The notes under the pieces are model-generated. The model was not told where the DNA came from. It saw only the letters and a program-made list of their open reading frames with translations, and searched no databases. The position numbers and the translations under genes were made by a program. A stretch of 64,000 nucleotides of DNA from Hyphomicrobiales bacterium (GTDB lineage: Bacteria; Pseudomonadota; Alphaproteobacteria; Rhizobiales; Xanthobacteraceae), in contig JAFKKN010000008.1 in assembly GCA_017305535.1 (NCBI GenBank), forward strand, positions 124,001-188,000, read 5' to 3'. Within the stretch, counting starts at the first letter, position 1. The number at the start of each line of letters is the position of its first letter. This document shows, one piece after another, positions 24,826-40,880 of this stretch.

Positions 24826-24850
24826 GAGAATACCATACTGTATAGAGAAT
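24826..24850 (+). promoter_or_regulatory. GAGAAT direct repeat over the iclR start, possible autoregulatory site
   Basis: Two GAGAAT motifs (24826-24831 and 24845-24850) flank the palindrome ATACTGTAT. CTGTATAGAGAAT (24838-24850) matches 11 of 13 bases of a motif in the promoter of the degradative operon at 37542-37554. A site overlapping the start codon would suit autorepression (inference). Confidence 0.4.
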
Positions 24851-25700
24851 GAACACTTCCGAGAAACCGGCCAAGCAGGTGAACGCGCTTTCGCGCGGCA
24901 TCGCCATCCTTCGCTACCTCGACTCGCAAGGCGAGCCGGTCGGCGTGGTGCAGATCGCCCGCGACCTGAAAATCAACGCCTCGACCTGCTTCAACCTGTT
25001 GCGCACCCTCGTTCACGAACGTCTGGCGATCTTCGATCCCGCGACGAAAAAGTACTCTCCCGGGCTCGGCGTGCTCGCGCTGGCGCACGCCGCCCTCAAG
25101 CAGGACGGCCACATTCAGCTGCTTCACCCGCAGCTCGAACAGATCGCCAACGCGCATAAGGTCACGGTGATGCTTTGGCAACTGACGTCGCCCGACCGGG
25201 CAATGGTGGTCGATCTCGCGGAGGCGTCGACACCATTGCGCGTGCAGTTCACCGTGGGACAACGGCTGCCGTCGCTGATCGGCGCGCTCGGACGCTGCTT
25301 TGCCGGGCACCTGAACCTGTCGAAAGCCGATATCAAGGTGATGTTCAAGGAACTGCGGTGGCAGAACGCACCCACCTTCGAGCAGTACTGGTCCGACGTC
25401 GAGGACGCGCGACGGAGCGGCTACGCCGTCGATATCGGCCGCTATAATCGTAACTTCACCACCGTGGCCGCGCCGATCCTGGCGGGCAACGGCGAGGCAA
25501 CCATGGCGATATCCGCCATCACGTTCTCCGGGGATCTCGACCGGCCGCGAATGCTCCGCCTTGCGGCGGATCTGAAACGCGTCACCGGGGAAGCTTCGAA
25601 CGCGCTCGGCTACAGCGGATCGTCAACCACGACGAAAGCAGTGCAAGCCGGCCGTCGCAAGACAGCGCTCCGCAAACAACGGACGACTACCGCGCCTTGA
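24849..25700 (+). CDS. IclR-family transcriptional regulator
   Basis: Protein of 283 residues. The N-terminal winged helix-turn-helix (VNALSRGIAILRYLDSQGEPVGVVQIARDLKINASTCFNLLRTLV, written here with the helix in the middle) is typical of IclR. The C-terminal ligand-binding domain contains VRFTVG-like and AAPILAGNGEATMAISAI blocks. IclR proteins bind small aromatic or aliphatic acids and often control adjacent catabolic operons. It faces the large acyl-CoA operon tail to tail, and its last 14 bases overlap the end of the last operon gene on the other strand. Control of that operon is an inference from position and shared motifs. Confidence 0.9.
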   Translation: MNTSEKPAKQVNALSRGIAILRYLDSQGEPVGVVQIARDLKINASTCFNLLRTLVHERLAIFDPATKKYSPGLGVLALAHAALKQDGHIQLLHPQLEQIANAHKVTVMLWQLTSPDRAMVVDLAEASTPLRVQFTVGQRLPSLIGALGRCFAGHLNLSKADIKVMFKELRWQNAPTFEQYWSDVEDARRSGYAVDIGRYNRNFTTVAAPILAGNGEATMAISAITFSGDLDRPRMLRLAADLKRVTGEASNALGYSGSSTTTKAVQAGRRKTALRKQRTTTAP

Positions 25701-26430
25701 GATAACGCGCGATCGTCTCACGCACGCCGGGACGATTGAAATTCTCATGCATCAGCGGCGCGAGCCGGGCAATCCGTGCCTGGACATCCGATCCCTCGCG
25801 CATGGCCTTGGCCTTCCGCCCGATCTGAAGCGCCTCGATCCGATCGCGATAGAACGCCACGCGCTCCGCGACGCCGGCTTCGAAAGAGGCGGCCGGAACG
25901 ATATCCGAAATAAGTCCCAGCGCGCGCGCCTCCGTGGCATCGAGCAGGCGGCCGGTGGCGCAAAGCTGAAATGCGACGACCTCGGAGACTTTCTCCTCCA
26001 GCGCCGCCTGCACCATCACCGGATACATATTGAACCTGATTTCCGGGAGACCGAAGGCGAGATTGTCAGCGGCAATTGCCAGATCGCACAACGAGGTGAT
26101 CAAAACGCCTGCGCCCATCGTGCGCCCATGGATCGCGGCAACCACCGGCCGTGACGAGCTTGCCAGACTGGCGACAATCGCCTTCAGCCCCTCTTCCTGC
26201 CGCTCGAGATACGCGCCGCCTTGCAGGAATTCCGCGATGTCCGCTCCGGCGGAGAAGCCGGCGGTTCCGCGACCTTCGATCAAAATCAATTTGACATCGC
26301 CGGCCGCACGCACCGCATCGGCAATCGCGAACATCATGTCCGCCGTCAGCGCGTTGGCCTTTTCAGCGCGATCGATGGTGACGGACCGGATGCCGTCGCG
26401 GTCCTGCCAACGGATGAACTGCCCGGTCAT
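25687..26430 (-). CDS. Enoyl-CoA hydratase/isomerase family protein (operon end)
   Basis: Crotonase-fold protein of 247 residues. The first oxyanion-hole segment is GRGTAGFSAGADIAEFL and the second is AAIHGRTMGAGVLITSLCD. At the position of the second catalytic acid in classical hydratases the residues differ, so the exact reaction (hydratase, isomerase, hydrolase or lyase) is open. Its start overlaps the stop of the acyl-CoA synthetase gene by 4 bases. It is the last gene of the 13-gene operon, and its 3-prime end overlaps iclR antisense by 14 bases. Confidence 0.87.
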   Translation of the reverse strand: MTGQFIRWQDRDGIRSVTIDRAEKANALTADMMFAIADAVRAAGDVKLILIEGRGTAGFSAGADIAEFLQGGAYLERQEEGLKAIVASLASSSRPVVAAIHGRTMGAGVLITSLCDLAIAADNLAFGLPEIRFNMYPVMVQAALEEKVSEVVAFQLCATGRLLDATEARALGLISDIVPAASFEAGVAERVAFYRDRIEALQIGRKAKAMREGSDVQARIARLAPLMHENFNRPGVRETIARYLKAR

Positions 26431-28517
26431 GTCGCGGCGACCTTGATCAAGGCGTCGAGCGCGACGACGCGGTCTCCCCGCGCCACCAGCGGGTTGATTT
26501 CGATTTCGTCCTGGCCCGGATCGGCGGCGAAACGGACACCGATGCGCGCCAGGGCTTCCGCGATCGCGTCAAGATCAACGGGGGGACGTCCGCGAAAACC
26601 ATCGAACAGCCGCGCGCTGCGCAGCGACTTCAGCATCGCGACAATGTCCGCCGGCGACAGCGGCAAAAGGGCGATCGCGAAATCCGGATCAAGCTCGACC
26701 TCGACACCGCCGCGCCCCACCATCAGGAGGGGCCCGAACACGGGATCGCGGCGAAACCCGACGATCAGTTCGATGTCAAAGCCGACCATCTCCTCGATCA
26801 GAACGCCCTCGCACGAAATCCCGCGCTCCTGGCCGATCCGCGCGAGCTTCCGCACCGCCTCCGTGACGGAAGCTGTATCGCGAAGTCCGAGCACGACGCC
26901 GCCGTGTTCACTCTTGTGCGGCATCTCGGCCGATTGCAGCTTGGCGACGAAGGGTCCCGTCAATCCGGCCATCACGGTTGCGCCCCCCTCCGCCGAGCCC
27001 ACCAGGACCCCGGCCGGCAACGTCACGCCGCCCATCTCGCGAAGCCGCGCCTTGCTCTGCCATTCGGACAAGGTGACGGACCGCGCCGTGGCGCGACCAC
27101 CCTCGGGTGCATCACCGAGCTTCGCCGCGCGAAGCCGCCGCAAGCGCCCCTCGCAGACATAGGCGAGCGCCGTAATAGCCTGCGGGATGTCGGGATAGAC
27201 CGGTATCCCGGCCGCGTTCAACTGCGCGACGATGGCCGGGCGCGCGCCGATCCAGACCACGATGAACGGGCGACCGCTTTTCGCGCGCGCCGCAAGGATC
27301 GACTCGGTGAACACATCGGAAATCGAATGCATCAGGCCGATGAACAGGATCGTTGCATCGAGTTCAGGCGCCGCGCTGACGACCGCGAGCGTCTCACGAA
27401 ACAGCTCGGTCTTGGCGATGACATTCGCGGTCAGATCGACCGGGTTCTGCGGCTTGGAAAAGCCCGGCAACGCCTTCGCCAACGCCGCGGCGGTGCGCTC
27501 GGTGAAAGCCGGCAGGCTGAGCCCTGCGGTCTCGATGGCATCCGCGAGCAACACGCCAGCGCCGCCGGAAACCGACAGCACGCCGATCTTGCCGGCGGTG
27601 GGCACCGCGTCATGCAACACCAGCTTTGCCGCATCGATCATCTCGCTCACCGACGCGACACGGATCGCGCCATATTGGTCGAAGCAAGCCTGATAGACCC
27701 GGTCCTCGCCGGCCATCGCCCCGGTATGCGAGGCGGCGGCCGCCGCTCCTGCGGCGGACCGCCCTGCCTTGATGATGAAAACAGGCTTGTTGGCACGCGC
27801 GGCATCACGCAAGGCCGCGCGGAACGCCGGGCCGTCCTTGACGTCCTCGACATAAGCACCAATCACCTTGGTCATGGGATCGTCGGCCAGCATGCCGATC
27901 GCGGCGGCGAGATCGATATCGCATTCGTTGCCGGTGGAAATCCAACGGCTGACGCCGAGGCCACCCTGAAGCACCAGATCGAGCCAGTACGCGCCGAGCG
28001 CGCCGCTCTGGGTGGCGAAGCCGAAGCCGCCCGGTGTCAGTGCGTTCTCCTCCATCGCCGTGGTGAACGACGCGATCAGCCCCGTCTCCGCGTTAATCAC
28101 GCCAAGGCAGTTCGGCCCGACGATGGCAACGTCATGCTGTCGCGCCAGCTCCGTCAGCCGGGCCTGCAATCGCGCCCCTTCCGCATTGTGTTCGGAAAAG
28201 CCGGAACTCAAGACAACGAATGACCTCACCCCCGCGGCGATGCCCTCCACGACGACCGGTTCGACCTGTTCGGCTGCGGTGCCGATCAGCGCCAGATCAA
28301 TCGGCCGGTCGACCGCCGCGAGCGAGGGATACGCCCGCAACCCCTGAATCTCAGTGCGCGATGGGTTGATCGGGATGATCTCGCCCTTGAACCCGCGTTC
28401 CAGCATGTAAGCAATGGGACGCCCGGTCAGCTTTCCGGGATCGCTGGAAGCGCCGACCACCGCGACCCGGGTCGCGGCCATCAGCTTGGTGATCTTCTCG
28501 CGCGTGTTTGCCGTCAT
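26427..28517 (-). CDS. ADP-forming acyl-CoA synthetase (acetate--CoA ligase family)
   Basis: Activates a carboxylic acid to its CoA ester with formation of ADP. It has 696 residues from the ATG at 28517. The N-terminal CoA-binding Rossmann domain has VAVVGASSDPGKLTGRP; the middle succinyl-CoA-ligase-like domains contain VGPNCLGVIN and SHTGAMAGED; the C-terminal ATP-grasp domain contains PFVAKLQSAEMPHKSEHGGV and EINPLVARGD. Both halves of the archaeal two-subunit enzyme are fused. The 4-base overlap with livM places it in the transport operon, so it probably activates the imported acid. The chosen start drops a 13-residue upstream extension that lacks a ribosome site. Confidence 0.9.
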   Translation of the reverse strand: MTANTREKITKLMAATRVAVVGASSDPGKLTGRPIAYMLERGFKGEIIPINPSRTEIQGLRAYPSLAAVDRPIDLALIGTAAEQVEPVVVEGIAAGVRSFVVLSSGFSEHNAEGARLQARLTELARQHDVAIVGPNCLGVINAETGLIASFTTAMEENALTPGGFGFATQSGALGAYWLDLVLQGGLGVSRWISTGNECDIDLAAAIGMLADDPMTKVIGAYVEDVKDGPAFRAALRDAARANKPVFIIKAGRSAAGAAAAASHTGAMAGEDRVYQACFDQYGAIRVASVSEMIDAAKLVLHDAVPTAGKIGVLSVSGGAGVLLADAIETAGLSLPAFTERTAAALAKALPGFSKPQNPVDLTANVIAKTELFRETLAVVSAAPELDATILFIGLMHSISDVFTESILAARAKSGRPFIVVWIGARPAIVAQLNAAGIPVYPDIPQAITALAYVCEGRLRRLRAAKLGDAPEGGRATARSVTLSEWQSKARLREMGGVTLPAGVLVGSAEGGATVMAGLTGPFVAKLQSAEMPHKSEHGGVVLGLRDTASVTEAVRKLARIGQERGISCEGVLIEEMVGFDIELIVGFRRDPVFGPLLMVGRGGVEVELDPDFAIALLPLSPADIVAMLKSLRSARLFDGFRGRPPVDLDAIAEALARIGVRFAADPGQDEIEINPLVARGDRVVALDALIKVAAT

Positions 28518-29512
28518 CGGGTTACAACCTCCGTCGCGCCACGACGAAAACGCCACGCCTGCCGCGCACGCCCGAACGCGCCGATCAGGCCGTCAGGCGC
28601 GAAGCGGATCACGACCACCAGCAGCACGCCGAAGACCAGCAGGTGCACGCCGGGGAGCGATCCGCCGAGCGAATGCCGCAGCCACTCTCCCGCCGGCACC
28701 AGCAGCATCGGACCGACCACCGGCCCCCAGACCGTTCCAGTGCCGCCCACCACCGTCAGCAGAATGATCTGGATAACGATATTGATACCGGCGAAGGTGT
28801 GCGGCTCGACGTATTGCAGATACTGCGCATAGAAGGTGCCGCCGAACGCCGTCAGCGCCGCGCTGATCGCCATCGCCAGCATCTTGTACTTGAGGACCGG
28901 CACGCCGATGGCGTGCGCCGCGCGCTCGTTGTCGCGCACGGCGCGAAGATAAAGACCGATCTTGGTGTGATACAGCCACATCGACAGCGCGAGTGCGATG
29001 ATCACCTGAATCAGGATCACCACATAGTAGGTCGTGTCCGACCTGAATTGATACATCGCGGGCGTACCCCGCACCGGCAGCGTGAGGCCACGGCTGGCGC
29101 CGAGGAAATCGATCGACGAGATCGCGAGATAACCCAGCATCGCCAGCGCGATGGTCACGAGCGCGAAGGACAACGGCGGCAGTTCGTAACGAAACGACAG
29201 CCACGCGATGAAGACGCCAATTAGCGCGGCCAGTGCCGCGCCCGCGAACATCCCGATCCACGGCGTAATACCGAGATGGATCGAAAGCAGCGTCGAGGTA
29301 TAGGCCCCGGCCGCAAGGAACAGGCTGTGGCCAATGCAAAATTGCCCGGCGATGCCGCCAACCAGATTCCAGGCGATGCAGAGGTGAACGAACAATAGCG
29401 TCAGGATCGCCATGTTGGTCCAGCTCGAGGACATCGCCAGCGGCGCGAGGGCGACCGCGAGGAAGGCAATCCATGGCAGGGTTGTCGACGACAGGAGGCG
29501 TGAATCGTGCAT
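28514..29512 (-). CDS. livM: Branched-chain-type ABC transporter permease (LivM family)
   Basis: Inner-membrane permease, 332 residues with about nine hydrophobic helices. LivM hallmarks are the N-terminal ALAPLAMSSSWTNMAILTLLFVH, GGIAGQFCIGHSLF and the coupling motif DNERAAHAIGVPVLKYK. It pairs with LivH. It overlaps livH by one base and the acyl-CoA synthetase gene by four. LivHMGF systems of alphaproteobacteria import not only amino acids but also aromatic and aliphatic acids; the surrounding CoA enzymes favour an organic acid. Confidence 0.93.
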   Translation of the reverse strand: MHDSRLLSSTTLPWIAFLAVALAPLAMSSSWTNMAILTLLFVHLCIAWNLVGGIAGQFCIGHSLFLAAGAYTSTLLSIHLGITPWIGMFAGAALAALIGVFIAWLSFRYELPPLSFALVTIALAMLGYLAISSIDFLGASRGLTLPVRGTPAMYQFRSDTTYYVVILIQVIIALALSMWLYHTKIGLYLRAVRDNERAAHAIGVPVLKYKMLAMAISAALTAFGGTFYAQYLQYVEPHTFAGINIVIQIILLTVVGGTGTVWGPVVGPMLLVPAGEWLRHSLGGSLPGVHLLVFGVLLVVVIRFAPDGLIGAFGRARQAWRFRRGATEVVTR

Positions 29513-30378
29513 CAGTGCTCTCCCATCAGGCCGTGCGGACGGAACAGCAGCACCAGAACCAGAATCGCATAGGGAATCATCGCGCCGACCGTGCCGCCGT
29601 AGAGCAGACTGCCGAGGCTTTCAGAGACCCCGATGATCGCCCCGGCGATCATCGACCCGGCGAAGCTGCCGAGCCCTCCGATCACCATGACGATCAGCGC
29701 GATCAGCGTGAAATCGAGACCCATCGCGGGGGTCAGCGTGAACTGCGCGACGATGATCGCTCCCGTCAGGCCGAGCAATCCAATACCGATACCGAAGGCG
29801 ATGGCCTGAACCCGATCGATGCGAATACCCATCAGGGCGGCGGCGTCGCTGTTCTGCGTGATCGCGCGCACCTGTCGGCCAAAATCGGTCCGCATCAGCA
29901 CGACGTAAAGAATTGCGGCCAGCACCACCGCAAGCAGCGAACCGACCAGCAGCGGCCACGGCATAGTCAACGGCGGGATGACCAGATTTTTGTTGGAGAG
30001 AACCGTCGGCACGCTGAGGTAGTCGCCACCGAACACCATCAGCAGAAAGTTCTCCTGAACGAACACCAGCCCGAGCGTGAGCTGCGCACCGGCAAGGACA
30101 CCGGCAGCCAGCACCGGCTGCACCAGACGGCGAAACATCAGAAAGCCGAGCAGGAAGAAGCCAAAGAACAGCAGCGGCGCAGCGGCATAGGCATCAAGCG
30201 CGAAAGATTGATAGAGCGCCAGCGCGCCGTACATGGCGAGCGCCATGAAGTCGCCATGTGCAAAATTCAGAAGCCCGCCGACGCTGAAGATCAGCGTCAT
30301 CGACAGCGCGATCAGGGCGTAGATCGCCCCCATCTGCAATCCTTGCACCGTCGCCTGCAACAGAACCTCAGCTGACAT
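29512..30378 (-). CDS. livH: Branched-chain-type ABC transporter permease (LivH family)
   Basis: Inner-membrane permease, 288 residues, about eight helices. The N-terminal GLQMGAIYALIALSMTLIFSVGGLLNFAHGDF (GLLNFAHG being the LivH hallmark) and the coupling region QNSDAAALMGIRIDRVQ are clear. It forms the membrane channel with LivM. Gene order livK-livG-livF-livH-livM is complete and tightly packed, with an 8-base gap to livF. Confidence 0.93.
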   Translation of the reverse strand: MSAEVLLQATVQGLQMGAIYALIALSMTLIFSVGGLLNFAHGDFMALAMYGALALYQSFALDAYAAAPLLFFGFFLLGFLMFRRLVQPVLAAGVLAGAQLTLGLVFVQENFLLMVFGGDYLSVPTVLSNKNLVIPPLTMPWPLLVGSLLAVVLAAILYVVLMRTDFGRQVRAITQNSDAAALMGIRIDRVQAIAFGIGIGLLGLTGAIIVAQFTLTPAMGLDFTLIALIVMVIGGLGSFAGSMIAGAIIGVSESLGSLLYGGTVGAMIPYAILVLVLLFRPHGLMGEH

Positions 30379-30385
30379 CAGATCC

Positions 30386-31093
30386 TCACAAGCGTCCGAG
30401 ATAGGCTTTGCGGGTGGCCGGATCGCGCGCCAGATCGCTGGAAGCGCCGGTCAGAACGATCTTGCCGTTTTCGATGACGTAGCCGCGGTTCGACACCGCG
30501 AGCGACAGCTTCACATTCTGCTCCGCGAGCAGAATGGTCAGCCCGTCCGCGTTCAGCTTGCGCAATGCGCCGTAGGTTTCCTGCACCAGCAGCGGCGACA
30601 GGCCCAGCGACGGCTCGTCGAGGATCAGCAGCTTCGGCTGCGCCATCAGCCCGCGCCCGATCACCAGCATCTGCTGCTCGCCGCCGGACATGGTCGCCGC
30701 CTTCTGGTCGCGTCGCTCGGCGAGCCGAGGAAAAAGATCGAAGATCCGCTCCAGCGTGGCCTCACGATACGGCCGCGCGCGGGGATGCACGCCGCCAAGC
30801 ATCAGGTTTTCCCACACCGTCATGCGCGGGAACACCATCCGCCCTTCCGGCACCAGCGCGATACCTGCCGCCACCGCGCGCTCCGCGCCCTCGCCCGCGA
30901 TCTCCGATCCCTCGAACGCGATGCGTCCGGCGGTCGGGCGAATGAGGCCGGCGATGGTTTTCATCAGCGTGGTCTTGCCGGCGCCATTGACGCCGACCAG
31001 CGCGACAAGCTCGCCCTTTTCGACGCGCAGGTCGATGCCGTGCAGAATGCTGATGCGGCCGTAACCCGATACGAGCCCCGAAATCTCAAGCAA
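30386..31093 (-). CDS. livF: Branched-chain-type ABC transporter ATPase (LivF family)
   Basis: ATP-binding subunit, 235 residues: Walker A GVNGAGKTTLMKT, signature MSGGEQQMLVIGRGLM, Walker B KLLILDEPSLGLSP and the His-loop replacement typical of LivF (LLAEQNVKL). It forms a heterodimer with LivG. Its start overlaps the end of livG by 8 bases. Confidence 0.94.
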   Translation of the reverse strand: MLEISGLVSGYGRISILHGIDLRVEKGELVALVGVNGAGKTTLMKTIAGLIRPTAGRIAFEGSEIAGEGAERAVAAGIALVPEGRMVFPRMTVWENLMLGGVHPRARPYREATLERIFDLFPRLAERRDQKAATMSGGEQQMLVIGRGLMAQPKLLILDEPSLGLSPLLVQETYGALRKLNADGLTILLAEQNVKLSLAVSNRGYVIENGKIVLTGASSDLARDPATRKAYLGRL

Positions 31094-31850
31094 GCTCCAA
31101 CTCCTCGCCGAGATAGATCTCGATCACCTTGGGATCGCGCACCACATCCTCCGGCGCGCCTTCGATGATCTTGCGACCGGTGCCCATGACTACGATCCGG
31201 TCGCTCAGGCTCATGATGACGTCCATATTATGCTCGACCACGAGGAAGGTGACGCCGCGATCGCGCAGGTTCTGGATCATGCGTACGACATCCTGCGTTT
31301 CAGCAGGTCGCAACCCGGCCATGACCTCATCCAGCAGGATCATCTGCGGCTGGGTCGCCATGGCCTTGCCGATCTCGAGCGCCTTCTGATCCGGCAAGGT
31401 CAGATGACGACAGGTCAGGTCGAGCTTGCCGTCGAGACGCACCAGTTCGGCGATCGAGATCGCGACCTTGCGCGCCTCGGCCATCGACAATCGAACCAAC
31501 GCGGCCGCCGTCAGCGTTTCGCGAACCGTCAGGCTGGGAAACACCTCCATGATCTGGAACGTGCGCGTCAATCCGCGCCGGCAGATCTCCTCAGGCGCCA
31601 CACCGTCGATCCGCTCGCCGCGAAACCGCACCTCGCCGCTGGTTCTGCGCACGAAGCCCGATATCGCCTGGAAGAACGTGGTCTTTCCCGCCCCGTTGGG
31701 GCCGATCAGACCGACGATCTCGCCACGCCTCACATCCAGCGAGACGTGGTCGACAGCCTTGAGGCCACCAAACTGGACCGAGATATCGACAGCGGAGAGG
31801 AGTATCTCGCCGCTGTCGCTTCCGGTCGCAGACGCGTCGCTTTTGCTCAT
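31086..31850 (-). CDS. livG: Branched-chain-type ABC transporter ATPase (LivG family)
   Basis: ATP-binding subunit, 254 residues. Walker A is GPNGAGKTTFFQAISG, Walker B is MILLDEVMAGL and the switch His lies in VVEHNMDVIM. The signature region is degenerate (CRHLTLPDQKALEIGKAMA instead of LSxGxQ), as often seen in LivG members. The N-terminal SKSDASATGSDSGE tail is extra. Together with LivF it powers import through LivHM. Confidence 0.93.
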   Translation of the reverse strand: MSKSDASATGSDSGEILLSAVDISVQFGGLKAVDHVSLDVRRGEIVGLIGPNGAGKTTFFQAISGFVRRTSGEVRFRGERIDGVAPEEICRRGLTRTFQIMEVFPSLTVRETLTAAALVRLSMAEARKVAISIAELVRLDGKLDLTCRHLTLPDQKALEIGKAMATQPQMILLDEVMAGLRPAETQDVVRMIQNLRDRGVTFLVVEHNMDVIMSLSDRIVVMGTGRKIIEGAPEDVVRDPKVIEIYLGEELELA

Positions 31851-31897: not shown

Positions 31898-33127
31898 TTA
31901 CTTCACGCCTTCGATGATCGGTTTGGCCGACGCCACCGCTTCCGGATAGACGGTGTGCTTCGCGCCGTCCTTCCACTGCACGAAGATCGCGCTGGTGCCC
32001 GCCAACGTGCCATCTTCGGCATAGTGGACGTCGCCCGGAATAATCGGCAACACGATGGCGGGATCGCCGGCCTTGAACTTCAGGCCACGGAACGCCGCAT
32101 TGACCTTCACTGGATCGTCGGTGCCGGCATTCTCCAGCGCCTGCACCAGGAAGCGTGCGGCCTGCACGCCGAACATGAAGCTCTGATCCAGCACCTTGTC
32201 CGGATAGGCGGCGGTGCCCTTCTGCAACGCATCCTTCAGGCCGGGCAGCTTGCCGTCTGCCGAATAGAACGCCAACCCGAACGAACTGGTCAGCGTCTTC
32301 TCGGCAACTTCCTTGCCCAGCGTCCCCCACAGCTTGTCGTCGCTGAAGCCCGCCGAGCCGCCGAGCCAGATCGGCGAGGTGTAACCGAGATTGAAGCGCG
32401 CCTTATGCAGCAACACGCCGTCCTGGAAATAAACCACGGAGATGACGGCATCGGGCGCCAGGCTCTTCACCCGCAGCACGATCGGCGTCATGTCCTTCAC
32501 CGACGGCTCGACCGCGATCGATTCGAGAACCTTGACGCCCTGCGCCGCCAGCGCCGCCGCCGCCGTCTTGGACACCACCTGGCCGTAATCGTTATTGGCG
32601 TAGGTGATGGCGACGGTGTTGATCTTGGCGCCCTTCGAGATCAGCCATTTCACCGCGTCGGCATAGGCCTTGCCGAAACCCTCGGCGCTGATCGAAATCG
32701 TGGAGAAGTACGGCGTGGTCGGAATCACCGTGGTCTGGAGACCGACGCCGCCGACCTGATAGCGATCCGCCACCGGCATGAAGGCCTGCGCTTCCGGCGT
32801 CGAATACGGCCCGAGAATAAAGGAGACTTTCTCCTCCGACATCAGACGGCGCGCTTCGAGCGATGTCTTGGTGGGATCGGAGCCGTTGTCCGCGATCACA
32901 AGGTTGATCTTGCCGCCGCCGAGGCTCTTGATGCCTCCCGCCGCATTGGTGTTGTTCACCACCATCTCGATCCCGCGCACCACGCTCAGGCCGGTCTCCG
33001 CATAGCGTCCGGTGCGCGGCATCAGCACGCCGATCTTGACGTCCTTGGCGAAACTGGGAGCGACCGACATCACGCCGGTCATGAGCGCCAGTGCCCCAAC
33101 TGCCGCCAACCGCGATAATCTGCTCAT
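31898..33127 (-). CDS. ABC transporter substrate-binding protein (LivK/urtA-type, type I fold)
   Basis: Periplasmic binding protein of 409 residues with a signal peptide (LAAVGALALMTGVMSVAPSFAK) and mature start KDVKIGVLMPRTGRYAETGLSVVRG, the usual Peripla_BP_6 opening. It provides substrate specificity for LivFGHM. Leucine/isoleucine-binding residues are not obvious by eye, and the gene sits in a CoA-catabolic operon, so the ligand is more likely a carboxylic acid. It is preceded by a hairpin that may raise its expression over the upstream enzyme genes. Confidence 0.92.
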   Translation of the reverse strand: MSRLSRLAAVGALALMTGVMSVAPSFAKDVKIGVLMPRTGRYAETGLSVVRGIEMVVNNTNAAGGIKSLGGGKINLVIADNGSDPTKTSLEARRLMSEEKVSFILGPYSTPEAQAFMPVADRYQVGGVGLQTTVIPTTPYFSTISISAEGFGKAYADAVKWLISKGAKINTVAITYANNDYGQVVSKTAAAALAAQGVKVLESIAVEPSVKDMTPIVLRVKSLAPDAVISVVYFQDGVLLHKARFNLGYTSPIWLGGSAGFSDDKLWGTLGKEVAEKTLTSSFGLAFYSADGKLPGLKDALQKGTAAYPDKVLDQSFMFGVQAARFLVQALENAGTDDPVKVNAAFRGLKFKAGDPAIVLPIIPGDVHYAEDGTLAGTSAIFVQWKDGAKHTVYPEAVASAKPIIEGVK

Positions 33128-33182: not shown

Positions 33183-33572
33183 CTAGACAGCCAAGGTCAG
33201 CGTGCCGGAGATCACCGGCTCGCCGTGCTGATTTTCAATTGCGATATCGTAGATTCCATTCGCGCCGTCGCGAAGCCGTCCGCGCGCCGACACCGTATCG
33301 TTTTCACGAACGGGACGCGTGAAGCGCACATCCAGTTTCGCGCCGTCCTGCGCCTGCGAACCATAGGTTGCCCGCAGCGATTGCCAGACCAGATTCAGCG
33401 ACAGCATCCCGTGAGCGATAATGCCGCGCATTGGCGTCGTCGCCGCGAATTCCGGATCGACATGAATCGGATTGAAGTCGTCGGTGATTTCCGCATAGAG
33501 GCGGATGGCCGGACGATCCACGACCTTGCTGACGCGCGCGAGTTCGGCTTGCGTGTACTCGGACATGATCAT
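33183..33572 (-). CDS. MaoC family dehydratase/hydratase
   Basis: Single hot-dog protein of 129 residues. The hydratase-2 motif is present as YAEITDDFNPIHVDPEFAATTPMRGIIAHGML: catalytic Asp (DDFNPIH) and His are intact. The ATG at 33572 is chosen because it overlaps the upstream stop by 4 bases (ATGA); an ATG at 33566 would remove two residues. Together with the FAS1-type partner upstream it probably forms a heteromeric (R)-enoyl-CoA hydratase. Confidence 0.88.
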   Translation of the reverse strand: MIMSEYTQAELARVSKVVDRPAIRLYAEITDDFNPIHVDPEFAATTPMRGIIAHGMLSLNLVWQSLRATYGSQAQDGAKLDVRFTRPVRENDTVSARGRLRDGANGIYDIAIENQHGEPVISGTLTLAV

Positions 33573-33952
33573 TTCGCCCACAACGTCGTCATCAGGCCGG
33601 AGAACATCAATTCCCCGTCGGCCCGACGCGTTTCCGACCCGAACCGGACCCAGCGGCGATCACCCTTCAATTCCTTGCCTTCGCAACTCAATTCGGTGAC
33701 CAGTTCATCCCCGATCTTCGGCATCCTGCTCACCGTGAACAGTTGCTGGCCGTGGACATTGCCGGGCGGCCGCGGCACCAGAATATCGGAGTAGGCGCGA
33801 ATGTAGACCGAGGCCATCATTCCCGGCGGCATGGTGTCGCCGTCGCGGTCCTCAGGAAACAACGTCAGCCACCGCTCCACGAGGTCGCGACCGAGCACCA
33901 GAGTCCTGCGACCGATCAACTTGCCGGGCTCGAAGGTTTCAAACACAAACAT
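33569..33952 (-). CDS. MaoC-like N-terminal (FAS1-type dehydratase) domain protein
   Basis: Hot-dog protein of 127 residues (FEPGKLIGRRTLVLGRDLVERWLTLFPEDRD) resembling the non-catalytic half of double-hot-dog hydratases: it lacks the D-x-x-x-x-H catalytic motif of its neighbour. In related systems such a protein pairs with a small MaoC protein to create a large binding pocket for bulky acyl-CoA. The gene starts one base after the DUF35 gene stops and overlaps maoC by four, so the two should be made in equal amounts. Confidence 0.82.
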   Translation of the reverse strand: MFVFETFEPGKLIGRRTLVLGRDLVERWLTLFPEDRDGDTMPPGMMASVYIRAYSDILVPRPPGNVHGQQLFTVSRMPKIGDELVTELSCEGKELKGDRRWVRFGSETRRADGELMFSGLMTTLWAK

Positions 33953-34351
33953 CTAGCGCGGCCTCGCTTGTGGCAACGGATACTCGCCCTCGGTCGGCTC
34001 GAAGAACACCTCGATCGGCATGCCGATGCCGACCGTCTCCGGATCGACGTCACGAAGGTTGACCATCGCGCGCACGCCTTCTTCCAGCGCAACGATCGCG
34101 ATGACATACGGCACATCGGCCTTGAAGGATTCCAGCGGCGCGCGGTGAACCACCGTGAACGAATAGACCGTGCCGCGCCCGCTCGACGGCAGCCAGTCGA
34201 GATCCGCGCCGTGGCATGCGGTGCATGTCAAGCGCGGCGGAAACTGACTGTGGCCGCACGTCTTGCAGTGCTGAAATTCGAACCGACCGTCTTTGCAGCT
34301 CGACCAGAAGCGCTGCGTCACGACGTTGGGTTGCGGAAGCGGCTTCGACAT
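33953..34351 (-). CDS. Zn-ribbon/OB-fold DUF35 protein
   Basis: Protein of 132 residues with a four-Cys zinc ribbon near residues 29-47 (CKTCGHSQFPPRLTCTACHG) followed by an OB-fold (GRGTVYSFTVVHRAP). DUF35 proteins bind thiolase-like partners and are required for activity in several systems, including the ChsH2-Ltp2 steroid aldolase and archaeal HMG-CoA synthase/thiolase complexes. It lies between the thiolase-like gene and the hydratase pair, with 3- and 0-base gaps, so interaction with the thiolase-like protein is a good inference. Confidence 0.88.
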   Translation of the reverse strand: MSKPLPQPNVVTQRFWSSCKDGRFEFQHCKTCGHSQFPPRLTCTACHGADLDWLPSSGRGTVYSFTVVHRAPLESFKADVPYVIAIVALEEGVRAMVNLRDVDPETVGIGMPIEVFFEPTEGEYPLPQARPR

Positions 34352-34354
34352 CGC

Positions 34355-35509
34355 TCAGTTCCTCCCCAGCACGAGCGAACAATGCGCGGACAGGATGCCG
34401 CCATCGCCATGCACGAACGCCAACTCGGGCGACACGACCTGACGGCCCTCGGCCTCGCCGCGCAACTGACGCACCGCTTCGACCACATGGAACATGCCGC
34501 CGGCCGCACCGGAATGCGCGTAAGACAGCAGCCCGCCGTGCGTGTTGCATGGCAACCGGCCATCGAGATCGAGCGCGCCGCCGAGAATCGCGGGACCCGC
34601 CTCGCCGCGCGCGAAGAAGCCGATGGATTCCAGTTCCGCCAGCAAGGTGATCGTGAAGCTGTCGTAGATTTCGGCGACATCGATATCGGCAGGCGTGACG
34701 CCCGCGCGACGAAACGCCTGAGCGGACGACTGCTTGCAACCGAAATCGGTCAGCGACGGCGATGCGATGATATGCTCGTGGGTATTCATCTGGCCGGTGC
34801 CAAGAACCTCGATACCACGCTTGCGCGTATCCCGCGCAGCATCGGCGGCGCTGACGACGACAGCCGCGCCGCCGTCCGAGATCAAACAACAGTCGAGCAG
34901 GCGAAGCGGCGTCGAGATCGGTTTCGACTTCGCCACATCCTCCAGCGTGATCGGTTGCCGCATCTGGGCCTTCGGATTGCGCATCGCGTGCTTGCGATGG
35001 GCGACCGCGACACCGGCAAGGTGCTCCAGCGTCACGCCGTAGTCGTGCATATAGCGCTGCGCCACCAACGCATAAGCCGACGGCACGCTGATGCCGTAGG
35101 GCCGCTCGAACTGGGCGTGCCCCACCTCCGACAATGCCGCCACCGCCTTGTCGCGCGACATGCCGGTCAATCGGTTGTCGCCACAGACCGCGAGAACGTG
35201 CCGGCAGATTCCGGCCTCCACCAGCGCAGCCGCCTGCATTACCTGGGCGCAGGCAGTGGCTCCGCCCGCCTGTACGGCGATCGAGTAAGACGGCATGATG
35301 CCGAGGAACTCGCTCACCACCGACGACAGCATCAGGTGTGGCTCCGTGAACGAATACGCGCACAACACCCCGTCGATATCGCCGAGCGACAAGCCTGCGT
35401 CAGCGACCGCGGCCGCCGCGGCCTCCGCCTGCAATCCGAGCGACGTCGAGCCCTCGACCTTGCCGACCGCCGTGTCGGCGACGCCGGTGATAACCGCCTT
35501 CGCTGCCAT
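34355..35509 (-). CDS. Thiolase-family protein without the nucleophilic Cys (possible acyl-CoA aldolase)
   Basis: SCP2-thiolase-like protein of 384 residues. Where thiolases have the nucleophilic Cys (C-A-x-G-x-x-A) this protein reads AGGATACAQV at 81-90, i.e. Gly at the expected Cys position; the nearby Cys87 is out of register. Later motifs are IYDSFTITLL with Tyr282 and CNTHGGLLSYAHSGAAGG with Tyr330. Ltp2, a retro-aldolase of steroid side-chain degradation, also lacks the Cys and uses two Tyr residues about 50 apart (294 and 344). Aldol cleavage is therefore plausible; it could also be a thiolase with altered chemistry. Confidence 0.8.
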   Translation of the reverse strand: MAAKAVITGVADTAVGKVEGSTSLGLQAEAAAAAVADAGLSLGDIDGVLCAYSFTEPHLMLSSVVSEFLGIMPSYSIAVQAGGATACAQVMQAAALVEAGICRHVLAVCGDNRLTGMSRDKAVAALSEVGHAQFERPYGISVPSAYALVAQRYMHDYGVTLEHLAGVAVAHRKHAMRNPKAQMRQPITLEDVAKSKPISTPLRLLDCCLISDGGAAVVVSAADAARDTRKRGIEVLGTGQMNTHEHIIASPSLTDFGCKQSSAQAFRRAGVTPADIDVAEIYDSFTITLLAELESIGFFARGEAGPAILGGALDLDGRLPCNTHGGLLSYAHSGAAGGMFHVVEAVRQLRGEAEGRQVVSPELAFVHGDGGILSAHCSLVLGRN

Positions 35510-35511
35510 GC

Positions 35512-36324
35512 CTATTTATCCTTGGTCTTGCGGCCGAACCGCTCCCAGACGAACTCGAGCGGCTTCTTCGCCAGGAAGCCGGCGACGGCCTCATGATGAT
35601 AAGGCGTCTCGAGCGCTACCGCCTGCGCATAGGATTCCATCTCGGCGAGCGCGTGCCGATCGAGATTGAAAGATTGGTTTAGAATCGTCTTGGCCATCCC
35701 GATGGCGTCGGTCGGCGCATGGCGGAAGCGCTGCGCGAAGGCCACGCCGGTCGCCAGCGGATCCTCCTGCGGTATGATCTCATGCACGATGCCGAGCCGA
35801 TGCGCTTCCTCCATCCCGAGCACACGGCCGGAGAAGATGATCTCCTTGGCGCGCTGCAGCCCGACGATGCGCGGCAACAGTTGCAGACCGCCCAGATCCG
35901 GCACCAGACCGATACGAACGAACACAGCGCACATCTGCGCGCGCGGCGTCGCCAGAATGAAGTCGGCCGCCAGCGCCAGATTGAATCCCGCGCCGAAGGC
36001 CGGCCCATCCACCACGGCCACGACGGGAATTTCCAGATCAAGCAGCTCGCTGAACCAGATATGCAGCCGACGGATGCGTTCGCGATTGGCAGTGGTCGGG
36101 CGTCGCCCCTCCGACAGCGCGCGCAGGTCACCGCCCGCGCAGAATGCGCCACCCTCGCCCGCAATCACCAGCGCCCTGGCGCCGCCATTCGCACGCAATT
36201 CGCGCACCACATGCTCGATCTCCTGACGCATGTCGAGATCGAGTGCGTTGCGCTGGTCCGGCCTGTTCAGGACAAGCCTCGCAATTTCATCTTCGATGGT
36301 GAAGCGGATGACCTTGAACGTCAT
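35512..36324 (-). CDS. Enoyl-CoA hydratase/isomerase family protein
   Basis: Crotonase-fold protein of 270 residues from the ATG at 36324, which overlaps the acyl-CoA dehydrogenase stop by 4 bases. Oxyanion-hole segments are GEGGAFCAGGDLRAL and VAVVDGPAFGAGFNLALAAD; RIGLVPDLGGLQLLPRIVG has Asp in the position of the second acidic residue. It follows acyl-CoA dehydrogenase in the operon, as expected for hydration of the double bond or its isomerisation. The presence of a separate MaoC pair means the two hydratases may have opposite stereochemistry or different substrates. Confidence 0.9.
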   Translation of the reverse strand: MTFKVIRFTIEDEIARLVLNRPDQRNALDLDMRQEIEHVVRELRANGGARALVIAGEGGAFCAGGDLRALSEGRRPTTANRERIRRLHIWFSELLDLEIPVVAVVDGPAFGAGFNLALAADFILATPRAQMCAVFVRIGLVPDLGGLQLLPRIVGLQRAKEIIFSGRVLGMEEAHRLGIVHEIIPQEDPLATGVAFAQRFRHAPTDAIGMAKTILNQSFNLDRHALAEMESYAQAVALETPYHHEAVAGFLAKKPLEFVWERFGRKTKDK

Positions 36325-37463
36325 GATGCGGACCTCAGCTGGCGCGCGATGATATTGCGCTGGATTTCCGACGTCCCCTCGCCGATCACATAGACGAGCG
36401 CGTCGCGATGGAAGCGGCCAACCGGGTACTCGCGCATGATGCCGGCGCCGCCGAGAATGCGGATCGCGGCCTCGGTGACACGAACCGCCATCTCCGACGC
36501 AACCAGCTTCACCCGCGCCGCCGTTGCGCTGTCGATGGTCCCCTGATCGACGCGCCACGCGCCGTAGTAGACAAACCATTTGGCCGCATCGATATCCGCC
36601 GCCATGTCGGCCAGCTTGTGCGCGATCGCCTGATATTCGATGATCGGCTTGCCTCGAACGATCCGTGTCTTGGCGAAATCGAGCGCGGCGTCGAAAGCCC
36701 CGCGGGCCATGCCGATGCAATTGGCCGAGACGCCGATGCGGTTTTCCGAAAGCGAGTCCAACACAATGTTATACGTGCCGGTCTCGCCGCCGAGCAGGCA
36801 ATCATCCGGCACGAATGCGTTCTCGATGTAGATCAGCCCGGTTTCCGACGATCGGATTCCTTCCTTCTTCAGCTTGCTGATGGCAAAGCCGGGATTCGGC
36901 AACTCGACCAGAAAGAGACTGATTGCATCCGACGTATGTTCGGACTTCGTCCGCGCGGCCACCGTCAGGAAATCCGCCATCGGCGCGTTAGTGATGTACA
37001 GCTTCGAACCGTTGAGCCGCCATCCACCGTCGACCTTCTCGGCGCGCGTCTTCATGCTGCGGACATCGGAACCGCCATCGGGCTCCGACAGACCGAAGCC
37101 GCCGACTTTGTCGCCGGACAATCCAGGTTTGAAGAAGCGCTCCTTCTGAGCCTCGGTGCCGGCGCGCCAGATCGGCCAGATCGCAAGATGCGTATGTGCC
37201 GACCACGACGACGCGAAGGCCTGGCAAACCCGGCTCATCTCCTCGCGCACGATGCAATCGCTGACCTTGTCGAAGCCGGTGCCGCCGTCGGCTTCCGGAT
37301 AACGCACGCCGAGCAAGCCAAGCTCGCCCCACTTGCGAAACAGCTCGCGTGGGAACACCTCACTTTCCTCCGCTTCCGTGACGAGGGGCGCGATATCCTG
37401 AGCCACGAAGCGGGCAATCGTCTCCCGCACCTGCTCCTGCTGAGGCGTGAACTGGAAGTCCAT
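36321..37463 (-). CDS. Acyl-CoA dehydrogenase (first gene of the operon)
   Basis: FAD enzyme of 380 residues introducing the alpha-beta double bond in an acyl-CoA. FAD/substrate motifs include GFGLSEPDGGSDVRSMKT and KLYITNAPMADF. The catalytic Glu is Glu362 in the classical IGEGTSEIQRNI context (MCAD/SCAD type). It is the promoter-proximal gene of the minus-strand operon and is divergent from a second dehydrogenase, with a palindromic operator-like site between them. Confidence 0.94.
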   Translation of the reverse strand: MDFQFTPQQEQVRETIARFVAQDIAPLVTEAEESEVFPRELFRKWGELGLLGVRYPEADGGTGFDKVSDCIVREEMSRVCQAFASSWSAHTHLAIWPIWRAGTEAQKERFFKPGLSGDKVGGFGLSEPDGGSDVRSMKTRAEKVDGGWRLNGSKLYITNAPMADFLTVAARTKSEHTSDAISLFLVELPNPGFAISKLKKEGIRSSETGLIYIENAFVPDDCLLGGETGTYNIVLDSLSENRIGVSANCIGMARGAFDAALDFAKTRIVRGKPIIEYQAIAHKLADMAADIDAAKWFVYYGAWRVDQGTIDSATAARVKLVASEMAVRVTEAAIRILGGAGIMREYPVGRFHRDALVYVIGEGTSEIQRNIIARQLRSAS

Positions 37464-37564: not shown

Positions 37565-37667
37565 TTTGAAAATAGTCATAGGCGATGGGCCGTCGCCATG
37601 TCAACATCGTCGCGCATGTCGGCGCGGTGAAAACCCGCATGCCGGCCATGATCGCAGGATGGAGCAG

Positions 37668-38825
37668 ATGAACCACAAGAAAACACGTTGTCCGCAGAAG
37701 AGCGTCGACCGAACGCAGTTTCGCGATATGTGCGCGCGCTTTGCCGCCGCGGAGATCGGCCCTCGCTGGCGCGCGGCGGATCGCGACAAGATCTTTCCGC
37801 GGGATTTCTATGTCGCTGCCGCGAAGGCGGGATTGATCGGCATCACCGCGCCGGAAGATGTCGGCGGCTCCGAACTCGGCGCTTACGAAGAAGCGATCGC
37901 GATGGAAGAGATGTCGAAGATCAATCCGAACCTTGCCGTCTCCGTACTGGTTCAAAACGTTGCGGGCTCGATTCTCTACGACTACGGTTCGCCGGCGCAG
38001 CGCGATATCGCGCGCGAAGTGATCGCCGGCAATTGTCTGGTCGCGATCACGGTGACCGAGCCCGAGGCCGGCAACGATGTGCAGAACGTCAAGACACATG
38101 CGCGGCGCGACGGCGATGACTGGATCGTCGACGGGTTGAAATCGTTTATCACGCTGGGCGGCGACAGCGATGTGCTGGTGACGCTCGCGCAAACCGATGC
38201 GAGTCGCGGCCGCCATGGGATGCACTTCTTCGCCATCGATCGCCGCAGCCCCGGCGTGACGTGCAGTCAGATCGAAACCTACGTCAATCGTCCGGCGCCG
38301 ACCTATCGCGTTCAGTTCGACAACGTCCGCGTGCCGGAAAGCCGGCGGCTCGATGCCGGCTTCAAGGAAATCATGACCGGGTTCAATCGCGAGCGCATCA
38401 TGGTCGCCGCGCGCTGGCTCGGCCACATGCAAGCTTCATTGAATTGGGCGCGGGATTACGCCACCACGCGACAGCAGTTCGGCCGTCCGATCGGCGCCAA
38501 CCAGTCGATCGCCTTCGCGCTGGCGCAAGCGCACGTCGATGTCGAAGCGACGCGGCACCTCACCTATCACGCCGCTGAACGTTACGATTCCGATATTCCG
38601 CTCAAGGATGTGATCCTCGACGTCTCCTCGGCGAAGCTGCTCGCGACGCAGGCGGTGGTGCGCGTCACGCAGGCCGCGCTGCATATCGGCGGAGGCTGGG
38701 GGCTGACGGAAGAGCTTCCGGCGATGCGCCTCGCGCTCGATGCGCTGGTCGCGCCGGTGACAGTCGGAAGCTGGGAGATCCAGCTCCGCGCCATCGCGCG
38801 CGAGATGGGTCTGCCCTGCGACTAA
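37668..38825 (+). CDS. Acyl-CoA dehydrogenase (IVD/LCAD-type catalytic Glu)
   Basis: FAD-dependent dehydrogenase, 385 residues from the ATG at 37668 (an in-frame ATG at 37659 is possible; GGAG at 37661 favours the later one). Motifs: ITVTEPEAGNDVQNV and KSFITLGGDSDV. At the classical catalytic position the sequence is VTVGSWEIQ, with Val366 in place of Glu, but Glu242 in FNRERI sits where isovaleryl- and long-chain acyl-CoA dehydrogenases carry theirs. It probably acts on a branched or otherwise different intermediate from the divergent neighbour. A strong hairpin follows. Confidence 0.92.
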   Translation: MNHKKTRCPQKSVDRTQFRDMCARFAAAEIGPRWRAADRDKIFPRDFYVAAAKAGLIGITAPEDVGGSELGAYEEAIAMEEMSKINPNLAVSVLVQNVAGSILYDYGSPAQRDIAREVIAGNCLVAITVTEPEAGNDVQNVKTHARRDGDDWIVDGLKSFITLGGDSDVLVTLAQTDASRGRHGMHFFAIDRRSPGVTCSQIETYVNRPAPTYRVQFDNVRVPESRRLDAGFKEIMTGFNRERIMVAARWLGHMQASLNWARDYATTRQQFGRPIGANQSIAFALAQAHVDVEATRHLTYHAAERYDSDIPLKDVILDVSSAKLLATQAVVRVTQAALHIGGGWGLTEELPAMRLALDALVAPVTVGSWEIQLRAIAREMGLPCD

Positions 38826-39013: not shown

Positions 39014-39383
39014 ACAAATCAATGCACGCCTTAACAGGGGAAACGAGGCCAACTCAACGCCCTGGGGCGTCGATTGATCCCGATCGAAGACTTCCTGAGA
39101 AGGCAACCACGGCGAATGCCGACGGCGCGATGGGTATGTATCAATGCTCGCTCCCTTTGGGAAGAGGCCACGGCCATTCTTTTCAACATTTTATGACAGC
39201 CCGGAACCGGATTGATCTTACCGCTTCCATGCGGCGCAACACCTGCGTTTTCAGACACGACTGACGGGCCGGTGTGGATCGCGCTCGATCCTTCGCTTAT
39301 TTCGCGACACGGTGTTCGATCGGCTTGCTCCCCGGCCCGTAAAAGCACAGCATTGCGGCCGTCAGGCTAGCTTCGAGGACCTC
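39014..39383. other. Gene-free gap, 370 bases
   Basis: Lies between the initiator tRNA and the aldehyde dehydrogenase gene. It should hold the tRNA promoter (right-to-left) and the promoter of the dehydrogenase. A short frame of 95 codons crosses it but overlaps the tRNA and has no ribosome site. I see no repeat or hairpin of note. Confidence 0.5.
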
Positions 39384-40817: not shown

Positions 40818-40880
40818 CGACACGGCGGAGCAACCGCCGGGCTCAAGACCATTCCAAGAAAAATTCCAAGGGAGTAAACA

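Follow-up and report, generated by a model that had tools for sequence, protein, structure and literature searches.

A tightly packed gene module centred on a Cys-less thiolase-like protein (P0001, 384 amino acids) lies in the 64,000-nucleotide stretch of a Hyphomicrobiales genome that we analyzed (contig JAFKKN010000008.1, positions 124,001 to 188,000), which as a whole is called the window here. The neighbouring genes encode a DUF35 protein (P0002), a hot-dog protein (P0003) and a MaoC protein (P0004). The best reading of residues and gene context, which we hold to be fairly probable, is that the thiolase-like protein represents a third active-site type of thiolase-fold/DUF35 acyl-coenzyme A (acyl-CoA) retro-aldolase, beside Ltp2 (Tyr/Tyr) and Sal (Tyr/Cys). 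The pathway is apparently widespread and undescribed, and probably non-steroid. No paper on the gene cluster was recognised by title or abstract among open-licence PubMed Central (PMC) papers, which is not proof of novelty, and the string YDSF has zero occurrences in a subset of the matching papers.

Active-site residues and relatives of the thiolase-like protein

Residues were compared in a 91-row alignment that includes 52 orthologues (the window, 49 named genome loci and two plasmid loci, several from one species; plasmid locus L051 is not among them) and Cys-containing SCP2-type reference rows (five with HDCF, one with HDAF). Same-genus copies L009-L011 were dropped, the same contigs being present as L056, L058 and L059. 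The nucleophile column of the SCP2-type thiolases corresponds to Gly83, which bears out the original prediction that the nucleophilic Cys had been lost to Gly. Cys87, named there as the residue that might prove to be the true nucleophile, lies four residues downstream of that column (Cys in 49 and Ala in three of the 52 orthologues, a biased count, as position 87 is inside one of the search patterns). Gly83, Tyr282, Asp283, Ser284, Phe285, His332 and His367 are invariant (52/52); position 330 is Tyr in 50 orthologues and Phe in two. The HDCF motif of SCP2-type thiolases reads YDSF here, with Tyr in place of its His, and both hallmarks of that family (nucleophilic Cys and HDCF) are missing. The His of the thiolase GHP motif is retained as His332.

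The catalytic residues described for this type of enzyme are Tyr302/Cys304 in CtSal and Tyr294/Tyr344 in TcLtp2, with Gly replacing the thiolase nucleophile (PMC12329534). Tyr282 occupies the Tyr294 column in all 52 orthologues, and Ser284 the third position of YDHF/YDCY. Tyr282 (in YDSF) and Tyr330 (in LLSYAH), 48 residues apart, had been equated with the Ltp2 pair. Both tyrosines are indeed present and the first half of this mapping stands, but in alignments with TcLtp2 the Tyr344 column is taken by the invariant His332, and Tyr330 sits two residues earlier. Among the 91 rows, Tyr in the His332 column is found in TcLtp2, IpfD, a second protein of plasmid pIBU218 and one paralogue from the window's own genome. 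This paralogue (contig C1, L043:8704-9825), 41% identical, combines YDNF with Tyr in the Tyr344 column, so that this genome also has an Ltp2-like active site. From the Sal pair (YDCY), the Tyr is kept and the Cys is replaced by Ser284 (52/52); the CtSal row itself has YDCY plus Gln. Judged by its sequence, the thiolase-like protein fits neither published residue pair.

The AlphaFold2 model of the protein (37 aligned orthologues) has a mean predicted local distance difference test score (pLDDT) of 82.5 and a predicted template modelling score of 0.89. Ranked by E-value, Foldseek returns 4u4e first, followed by CtSal (9myr) and TcLtp2 (6ok1); in sequence, the match amounts to 303 bits for 4u4e and 204 bits for TcLtp2. 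The nearest solved chains of known function, CtSal and TcLtp2, are both retro-aldolases, in agreement with the kinship to Ltp2-type enzymes proposed before. A maximum-likelihood tree of 61 rows (30 of the 91 were thinned beforehand) places the window clade (29 rows, support 95/84) within a 34-row group (100/98). TcLtp2, IpfD, CtSal and 4u4e belong to another group (18 rows, 94/94), in which several rows are long-branched and exact placement is unsure, and TcLtp2 pairs with the second pIBU218 protein (100/100). An Ltp2-type identity is thus not what the tree gives. As 4u4e lies outside the window clade, the YDSF/His pattern is present in more than one clade.

The conserved module and its putative hydratase pair

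A single scan of named genomes, based on two peptide patterns of which one lies just after Gly83, yielded the 49 loci. By their titles they are mostly Alpha- and Betaproteobacteria, with 67-98% identity to the thiolase-like protein. Core genes were counted with tblastn; counts of E1, E2, ligase, transporter and monooxygenase genes are lower bounds from a codon-position gene caller that found the thiolase-like gene in 47/49 loci. Near this gene, DUF35 occurs in 48/49 loci, the hot-dog gene in 46/49, MaoC in 46/49 and all three in 46/49. Since the four-gene block is kept within 4.5 kb in 46 of the 49 relatives, the module is not a chance arrangement; the three exceptions are L058 (where the contig ends inside the gene), L059 and L083. 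The acyl-CoA dehydrogenase ACAD1 is near in 28/49 loci (at least 60% identity, within 4 kb), the crotonase ECH2 in 27/49, an ADP-forming-type ligase in at least 23/49 and an IclR gene in 26/49. The same block is found on Azospirillum and Roseovarius plasmids. The uptake type varies, with ATP-binding cassette (ABC) transporters in the window and in Azospirillum, a tripartite ATP-independent periplasmic (TRAP) transporter in Roseovarius and, as judged by eye, tripartite-type binding proteins elsewhere, which suggests one kind of imported acid with exchangeable uptake. At E 1e-5, 571 plasmid records hold a homologue, Cys-containing ones included. Public names of such Cys-less proteins include "thiolase" and "acetyl-CoA acetyltransferase".

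The related genomes add some variants. In one same-genus genome (G002; L039/L059), orthologues of the thiolase-like and DUF35 proteins (94% and 86%) stand in another context without the hot-dog/MaoC pair. In a second one (G003; L038), the whole cluster is kept, but the ADP-forming-type ligase is missing between LivM and ECH1. The window's own genome holds a second related cluster (L041; contig C12, 82000-101000) with crotonases, DUF35, two acyl-CoA dehydrogenases and an ADP-forming-type ligase. Its Cys-less thiolase-like protein (YDCF, His) is 52% identical, and genes resembling the complete ABC transporter are present too. Both families are expanded in this 4.7 Mb genome, where DUF35 has seven matches, one of which falls below the cut-off, and six thiolase-like matches reach E 1e-60 or better.

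Alignments A3, A4 and A5 hold 36 of 49, 29 and 22 of the loci's copies, respectively, plus the window's own. In DUF35, the first Cys pair of the Cys4 ribbon is present in 41/44 rows (with a gap in the other three) and the second pair in 44/44; its sole NCBIfam match is the benzoylsuccinyl-CoA thiolase BbsA at 43.6 bits (cut-off 250). The partner gene anticipated from ChsH2 does adjoin the thiolase-like gene, and by analogy a complex of both proteins is proposed. The MaoC motif T-x-D-x-N-P-x-H-x-D is invariant in 23 aligned sequences (22 of 45 open frames and the window's). Read by eye, this dyad motif was not seen in 30 aligned hot-dog partner sequences. An earlier label of P0003 as a FAS1-type hot-dog protein holds for the fold: the AlphaFold2 model is a confident hot-dog (mean pLDDT 96.1) and the Foldseek top match is HadA of HadAB (just 10% identity). 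No Pfam match was found for it at E 1e-3. Pfam and motif support the proposed MaoC-type hydratase, as one of the heteromeric type. With one hot-dog subunit that carries the Asp/His dyad and one that does not, the pair resembles the heteromeric hydratase ChsH1/ChsH2, and by this analogy both subunits would form one enzyme. In Mycobacterium tuberculosis, only ChsH1 has the dyad and the MaoC part of ChsH2 is modified for bulky rings (PMC11321319), and in Comamonas testosteroni TA441 the MaoC and DUF35 parts were expressed separately with both activities kept (PMC12502768). The layout here would correspond to ChsH1, ChsH2-MaoC, ChsH2-DUF35 and aldolase, with ChsH2 split into two genes.

Two glutamate columns of the crotonase fold have a role in hydration. 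ECH2 has Glu in neither of them (0/33 rows), and ECH3, a hydratase-type crotonase of other loci, has both in 13/13 rows. The prediction of ECH2 as an enoyl-CoA hydratase is therefore not supported; ECH2 is probably not itself a hydratase, which leaves the MaoC pair as the likely one.

Neighbour searches covered the window's open reading frames (ORFs), the named-genome loci and the plasmid loci. Six 3HCDH_N queries from the window's own genome gave no match in the window, the 49 loci or three plasmid loci at E 1e-3; the six queries did find each other. Likewise, none of 17 PF02737 matches in the genome falls inside the window. With no 3HCDH domain detected, a hydration step and subsequent C-C lysis are a better fit than beta-oxidation, and a hydratase with a Cys-less thiolase-fold protein but no dehydrogenase has the look of a hydration/retro-aldol pathway. 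Five loci (L046-L049 and L094) also encode a Cys-containing thiolase, at a distance of about 2-5 kb from the Cys-less homologue, which is 50-51% identical to the window's protein in L046-L049 and an orthologue in L094. There, the Cys-less protein is thus not simply redundant with a thiolase or a stand-in for it. The original prediction of a retro-aldol pathway instead of beta-oxidation is partly supported, by the missing nucleophile, the Tyr base column, DUF35, MaoC and the 3HCDH result, but not by the Tyr/Tyr pair.

The features of the cluster are collected in Table 1. Coordinates, gene calls and tight packing had been predicted correctly for the five genes from MaoC to ECH2, all on the - strand, as checked by ORFs and Pfam; the core genes are spaced by 0-3 bases or overlap by four. 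Pfam matches are Thiolase_C_1/Thiolase_N for the thiolase-like protein, zf-ChsH2 and OB_ChsH2_C for DUF35, MaoC_dehydratas and ECH_1. Beyond ACAD2 (window 39312-42491), aldehyde dehydrogenase-like and glucose-methanol-choline (GMC) oxidoreductase-like genes, named by eye, are about 93% conserved in L040/L058 and were not found in L056; they could provide the acid from an alcohol.

Table 1. Genes of the cluster, with positions in the window and proposed roles.
Feature	Position	Strand	Description
Thiolase-like P0001, 384 aa	34355..35509	-	Cys-less thiolase fold; proposed acyl-CoA retro-aldolase; Gly83, Tyr282/Ser284 (YDSF), His332
DUF35 P0002	33953..34351	-	Zinc ribbon and OB fold, Cys4 ribbon; proposed partner of the thiolase-like protein
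Hot-dog P0003	33569..33952	-	Without catalytic dyad motif; proposed substrate-binding half of heteromeric hydratase (ChsH2-MaoC/HadA role)
MaoC P0004	33183..33566	-	T-x-D-x-N-P-x-H-x-D motif; proposed catalytic hydratase half (ChsH1/HadB role)
Crotonase-fold ECH2	35512..36324	-	No Glu in either hydratase column, conserved PD motif; putative double-bond isomerase
Acyl-CoA dehydrogenase ACAD1	36321..37463	-	Proposed alpha,beta-desaturation
Second acyl-CoA dehydrogenase ACAD2	37635..38825	+	Divergent; start codon not settled
Branched-chain-amino-acid-type ABC substrate-binding protein	31898..33127	-	Proposed acid import
ABC transporter LivG, LivF, LivH, LivM	28514..31850	-	Names from sequence reading and similarity to annotated plasmid genes
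ADP-forming-type acyl-CoA ligase	26427..28517	-	CoA_binding_2, Succ_CoA_lig, ATP-grasp_5; proposed acid activation
Second crotonase ECH1	25687..26430	-	Glu in just one of two hydratase columns
IclR-type regulator	24849..25700	+	Proposed local regulator

Proposed pathway, alternatives and substrate

In the pathway that we propose, the ADP-forming-type ligase would convert an imported carboxylic acid to its CoA thioester, which an acyl-CoA dehydrogenase would desaturate and a crotonase might isomerise. Hydration would fall to the heteromeric MaoC/hot-dog hydratase, in which, as in ChsH1/ChsH2, one subunit would be catalytic and the other would form a large pocket. The thiolase-fold protein, in complex with DUF35, would then cleave the beta-hydroxyacyl-CoA by a retro-aldol reaction without free CoA, yielding a ketone or aldehyde and acetyl- or propionyl-CoA. 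The base acting on the beta-hydroxyl is likely to be Tyr282, and for protonation of the enolate the best candidate is His332, a residue kept from the thiolase ancestor at the position of the acid Tyr344 of Ltp2.

Several observations weigh against this proposal. The sampling of the 49 loci is biased towards close relatives, and several of them belong to one species. The Gly/YDSF/His pattern occurs in 62 of the 91 aligned rows, ten of them outside the 52 orthologues, and could mark something other than aldolase activity. Fold alone does not discriminate, because true thiolases give similar TM-scores, and as the pLDDT of the model is below 50 at residues 325-333, its loop geometry around Tyr330 and His332 was not used. 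Ser cannot simply take over the role of Cys, because CtSal C304S is inactive (PMC12329534), and the role of His332 as acid is one that we infer. Some chains that bear the name thiolase (6esq, 7pxp) have DUF35-type partner subunits, too. Furthermore, nine strong PF02737 matches lie elsewhere in the genome, where a dehydrogenase could be encoded that supplies a beta-keto substrate, and short-chain dehydrogenase/reductase (SDR)-like genes were found in 9/49 loci with three queries.

If the protein were instead a DUF35-associated enzyme for breaking or making a beta-keto compound without Cys (by hydrolytic retro-Claisen cleavage, decarboxylation or acyl transfer), this would explain why His332 and the thiolase fold are retained, and would agree with BbsA as the sole NCBIfam match of DUF35. 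Moreover, TbSLP, also without nucleophile, is reported to show weak malonyl-CoA decarboxylation, but CtSal showed none (PMC12329534). We consider this explanation unlikely, as no 3HCDH domain was found beside the thiolase-like gene and Tyr replaces the HDCF His, a feature shared with the characterised aldolases. The loss of the nucleophile and the Ser where CtSal needs Cys could alternatively mean that the protein has no activity of its own and serves the hydratase as a scaffold or CoA-binding chaperone, with cleavage done elsewhere. Strict conservation of Tyr282, Ser284, His332 and His367 across Alpha- and Betaproteobacteria is unexpected for such a protein, and the recurrent neighbour families, as far as they were annotated, include no other recognised lyase; this makes a scaffold very unlikely.

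True Ltp2-type retro-aldol cleavage of steroid side chains with a Tyr/Tyr pair, in an alphaproteobacterium that degrades steroids, would be in line with the 204-bit homology to TcLtp2, the DUF35 gene and the split hydratase. Yet the Tyr344 column is His in 52/52 orthologues, the shorter Ltp2-type loop after it is missing and the clades separate in the tree. In addition, the genome has no HsaA match over the curated cut-off (ten lie below it; the search had no positive-control genome), and no steroid-ring genes were recognised by eye among the listed window ORFs. A steroid role finds no support, within the limits of an HsaA search without positive control, and we regard this origin as highly improbable.

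Under the proposed retro-aldol pathway, the substrate would be a beta-branched, alicyclic or otherwise bulky, probably non-steroid acid. Genes for E1-alpha or E1-beta subunits of a 2-oxoacid-dehydrogenase-like complex occur in at least 22/49 loci (by NCBIfam matches under the cut-off), and in at least nine they lie directly downstream of MaoC or DUF35. In L059, L069, L070, L076, L080, L081, L087, L100 and L102, E1-alpha/E1-beta genes come after the module, and within the limits of the contigs so do crotonase ECH3, E2 and acyl-CoA dehydrogenase genes. A search with one E2 query at E 1e-40, run without a control, gave no E1/E2 block in the window's own genome. One monooxygenase family is present near the module in at least 5/49 loci and in the Roseovarius plasmid locus (L052, L094, L095-L098; Rhodobacterales). 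The L094 member (L094:7065-8744), directly upstream of the thiolase-like gene, has OTEMO from camphor degradation as best solved match (553.8 bits; phenylacetone monooxygenase, 516.1), which identifies it as a type I Baeyer-Villiger monooxygenase. E1 and monooxygenase neighbours fit a released ketone, but may serve other steps.

Two Sphingomonadales loci have further neighbours. By Pfam, the gene immediately upstream of the thiolase-like gene in L069 belongs to CoA_transf_3, and the locus also encodes a FAS1-type dehydratase and two luciferase-like monooxygenases. L077 resembles L069 by eye and has a Baeyer-Villiger-like flavoprotein downstream. For the ABC binding protein of the window, the best of 37 solved matches are Leu/Ile/Val-binding proteins and uncharacterised receptors, with nothing ligand-specific among them. 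Alkylsuccinates (itaconate-like) and lignin-phenylpropanoid acids are substrate ideas only.

More tentatively, this third, non-steroid retro-aldolase class with its Tyr/His pair and split hydratase might define an undescribed route for alicyclic or beta-branched (e.g., terpenoid) acids, in which a Baeyer-Villiger monooxygenase (in marine Rhodobacterales) or a thiamine-dependent 2-oxoacid-dehydrogenase-like complex (elsewhere) would take over the released ketone; this is possible, though rather doubtful. If so, the module would be a candidate gene set for (1-hydroxycyclohexan-1-yl)acetyl-CoA-type lyases. Should the retro-aldolase class itself be real, some operons now taken for beta-oxidation would serve hydration and aldol cleavage, and homology to Ltp2 should not be equated with steroid degradation. 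The module is a compact, testable gene set with a clear residue prediction: Tyr282/His332, not Tyr330.

Comparison with known systems

A retro-aldol pathway of this kind would not be new to Alphaproteobacteria as such: a retro-aldolase step yielding propionyl-CoA, with ipfDE as the genes responsible for this product, is already published for ibuprofen degradation in Rhizorhabdus (PMC9195938), and the present module is betaproteobacterial as well. IpfD/IpfE (pIBU218, NZ_CP059320; the IpfD open frame was assigned here by position, with dioxygenase, OB-fold and ligase genes around it) likewise combine a Cys-less thiolase-like protein with an adjacent OB-fold DUF35-type gene. However, IpfD is only 36% identical, has YDAF with Tyr at the acid column of Ltp2, and adjoins a ring dioxygenase instead of a hydratase. 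A second OB-fold/thiolase-like pair near the ibuprofen genes (L105:5939-7503), with YDHF and a Tyr344-type Tyr, adjoins crotonase-type and CaiB-type genes.

Ltp2 (TcLtp2, 6ok1) with ChsH1/ChsH2 shares the thiolase fold, the absence of the nucleophilic Cys, the Tyr294 column, a DUF35 partner with Cys4 ribbon (TcChsH2, PMC12329534) and a heteromeric hydratase with one inert subunit. It differs in clade, in Tyr344 (His332 here), in His296 of YDHF (Ser284 here) and in the loop after the Tyr344 column, which is longer in the thiolase-like protein; the MaoC and DUF35 parts of ChsH2 are separate genes here. Sal/Shy of C. testosteroni is also proteobacterial and has the thiolase fold, Gly in the nucleophile column, the Tyr base column, a DUF35 partner and a MaoC hydratase, and CtSal (9myr) is the second-best solved relative. 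On the contrary, Sal has YDCY with the essential Cys304 and Gln352 where YDSF and His332 occur here. CtShy has a Cys3His1 zinc finger, which the Cys4 DUF35 of the cluster does not match, and unites MaoC and DUF35 in one homomeric protein as opposed to separate genes with a heteromeric-type hydratase; the substrate of Sal/Shy is a bile acid (PMC12329534, PMC11321319).

The best solved match, the "putative thiolase" 4u4e of Sphaerobacter thermophilus, has the same Gly/YDSF/His pattern, but is just 44-47% identical and belongs to another clade; no paper on its function was found in the open-licence literature. Finally, SCP2-type thiolases (4bi9, 7yvy) share the fold and the GHP His, kept as His332, whereas their nucleophilic Cys is Gly83 and their HDCF/HDAF is YDSF in the thiolase-like protein.

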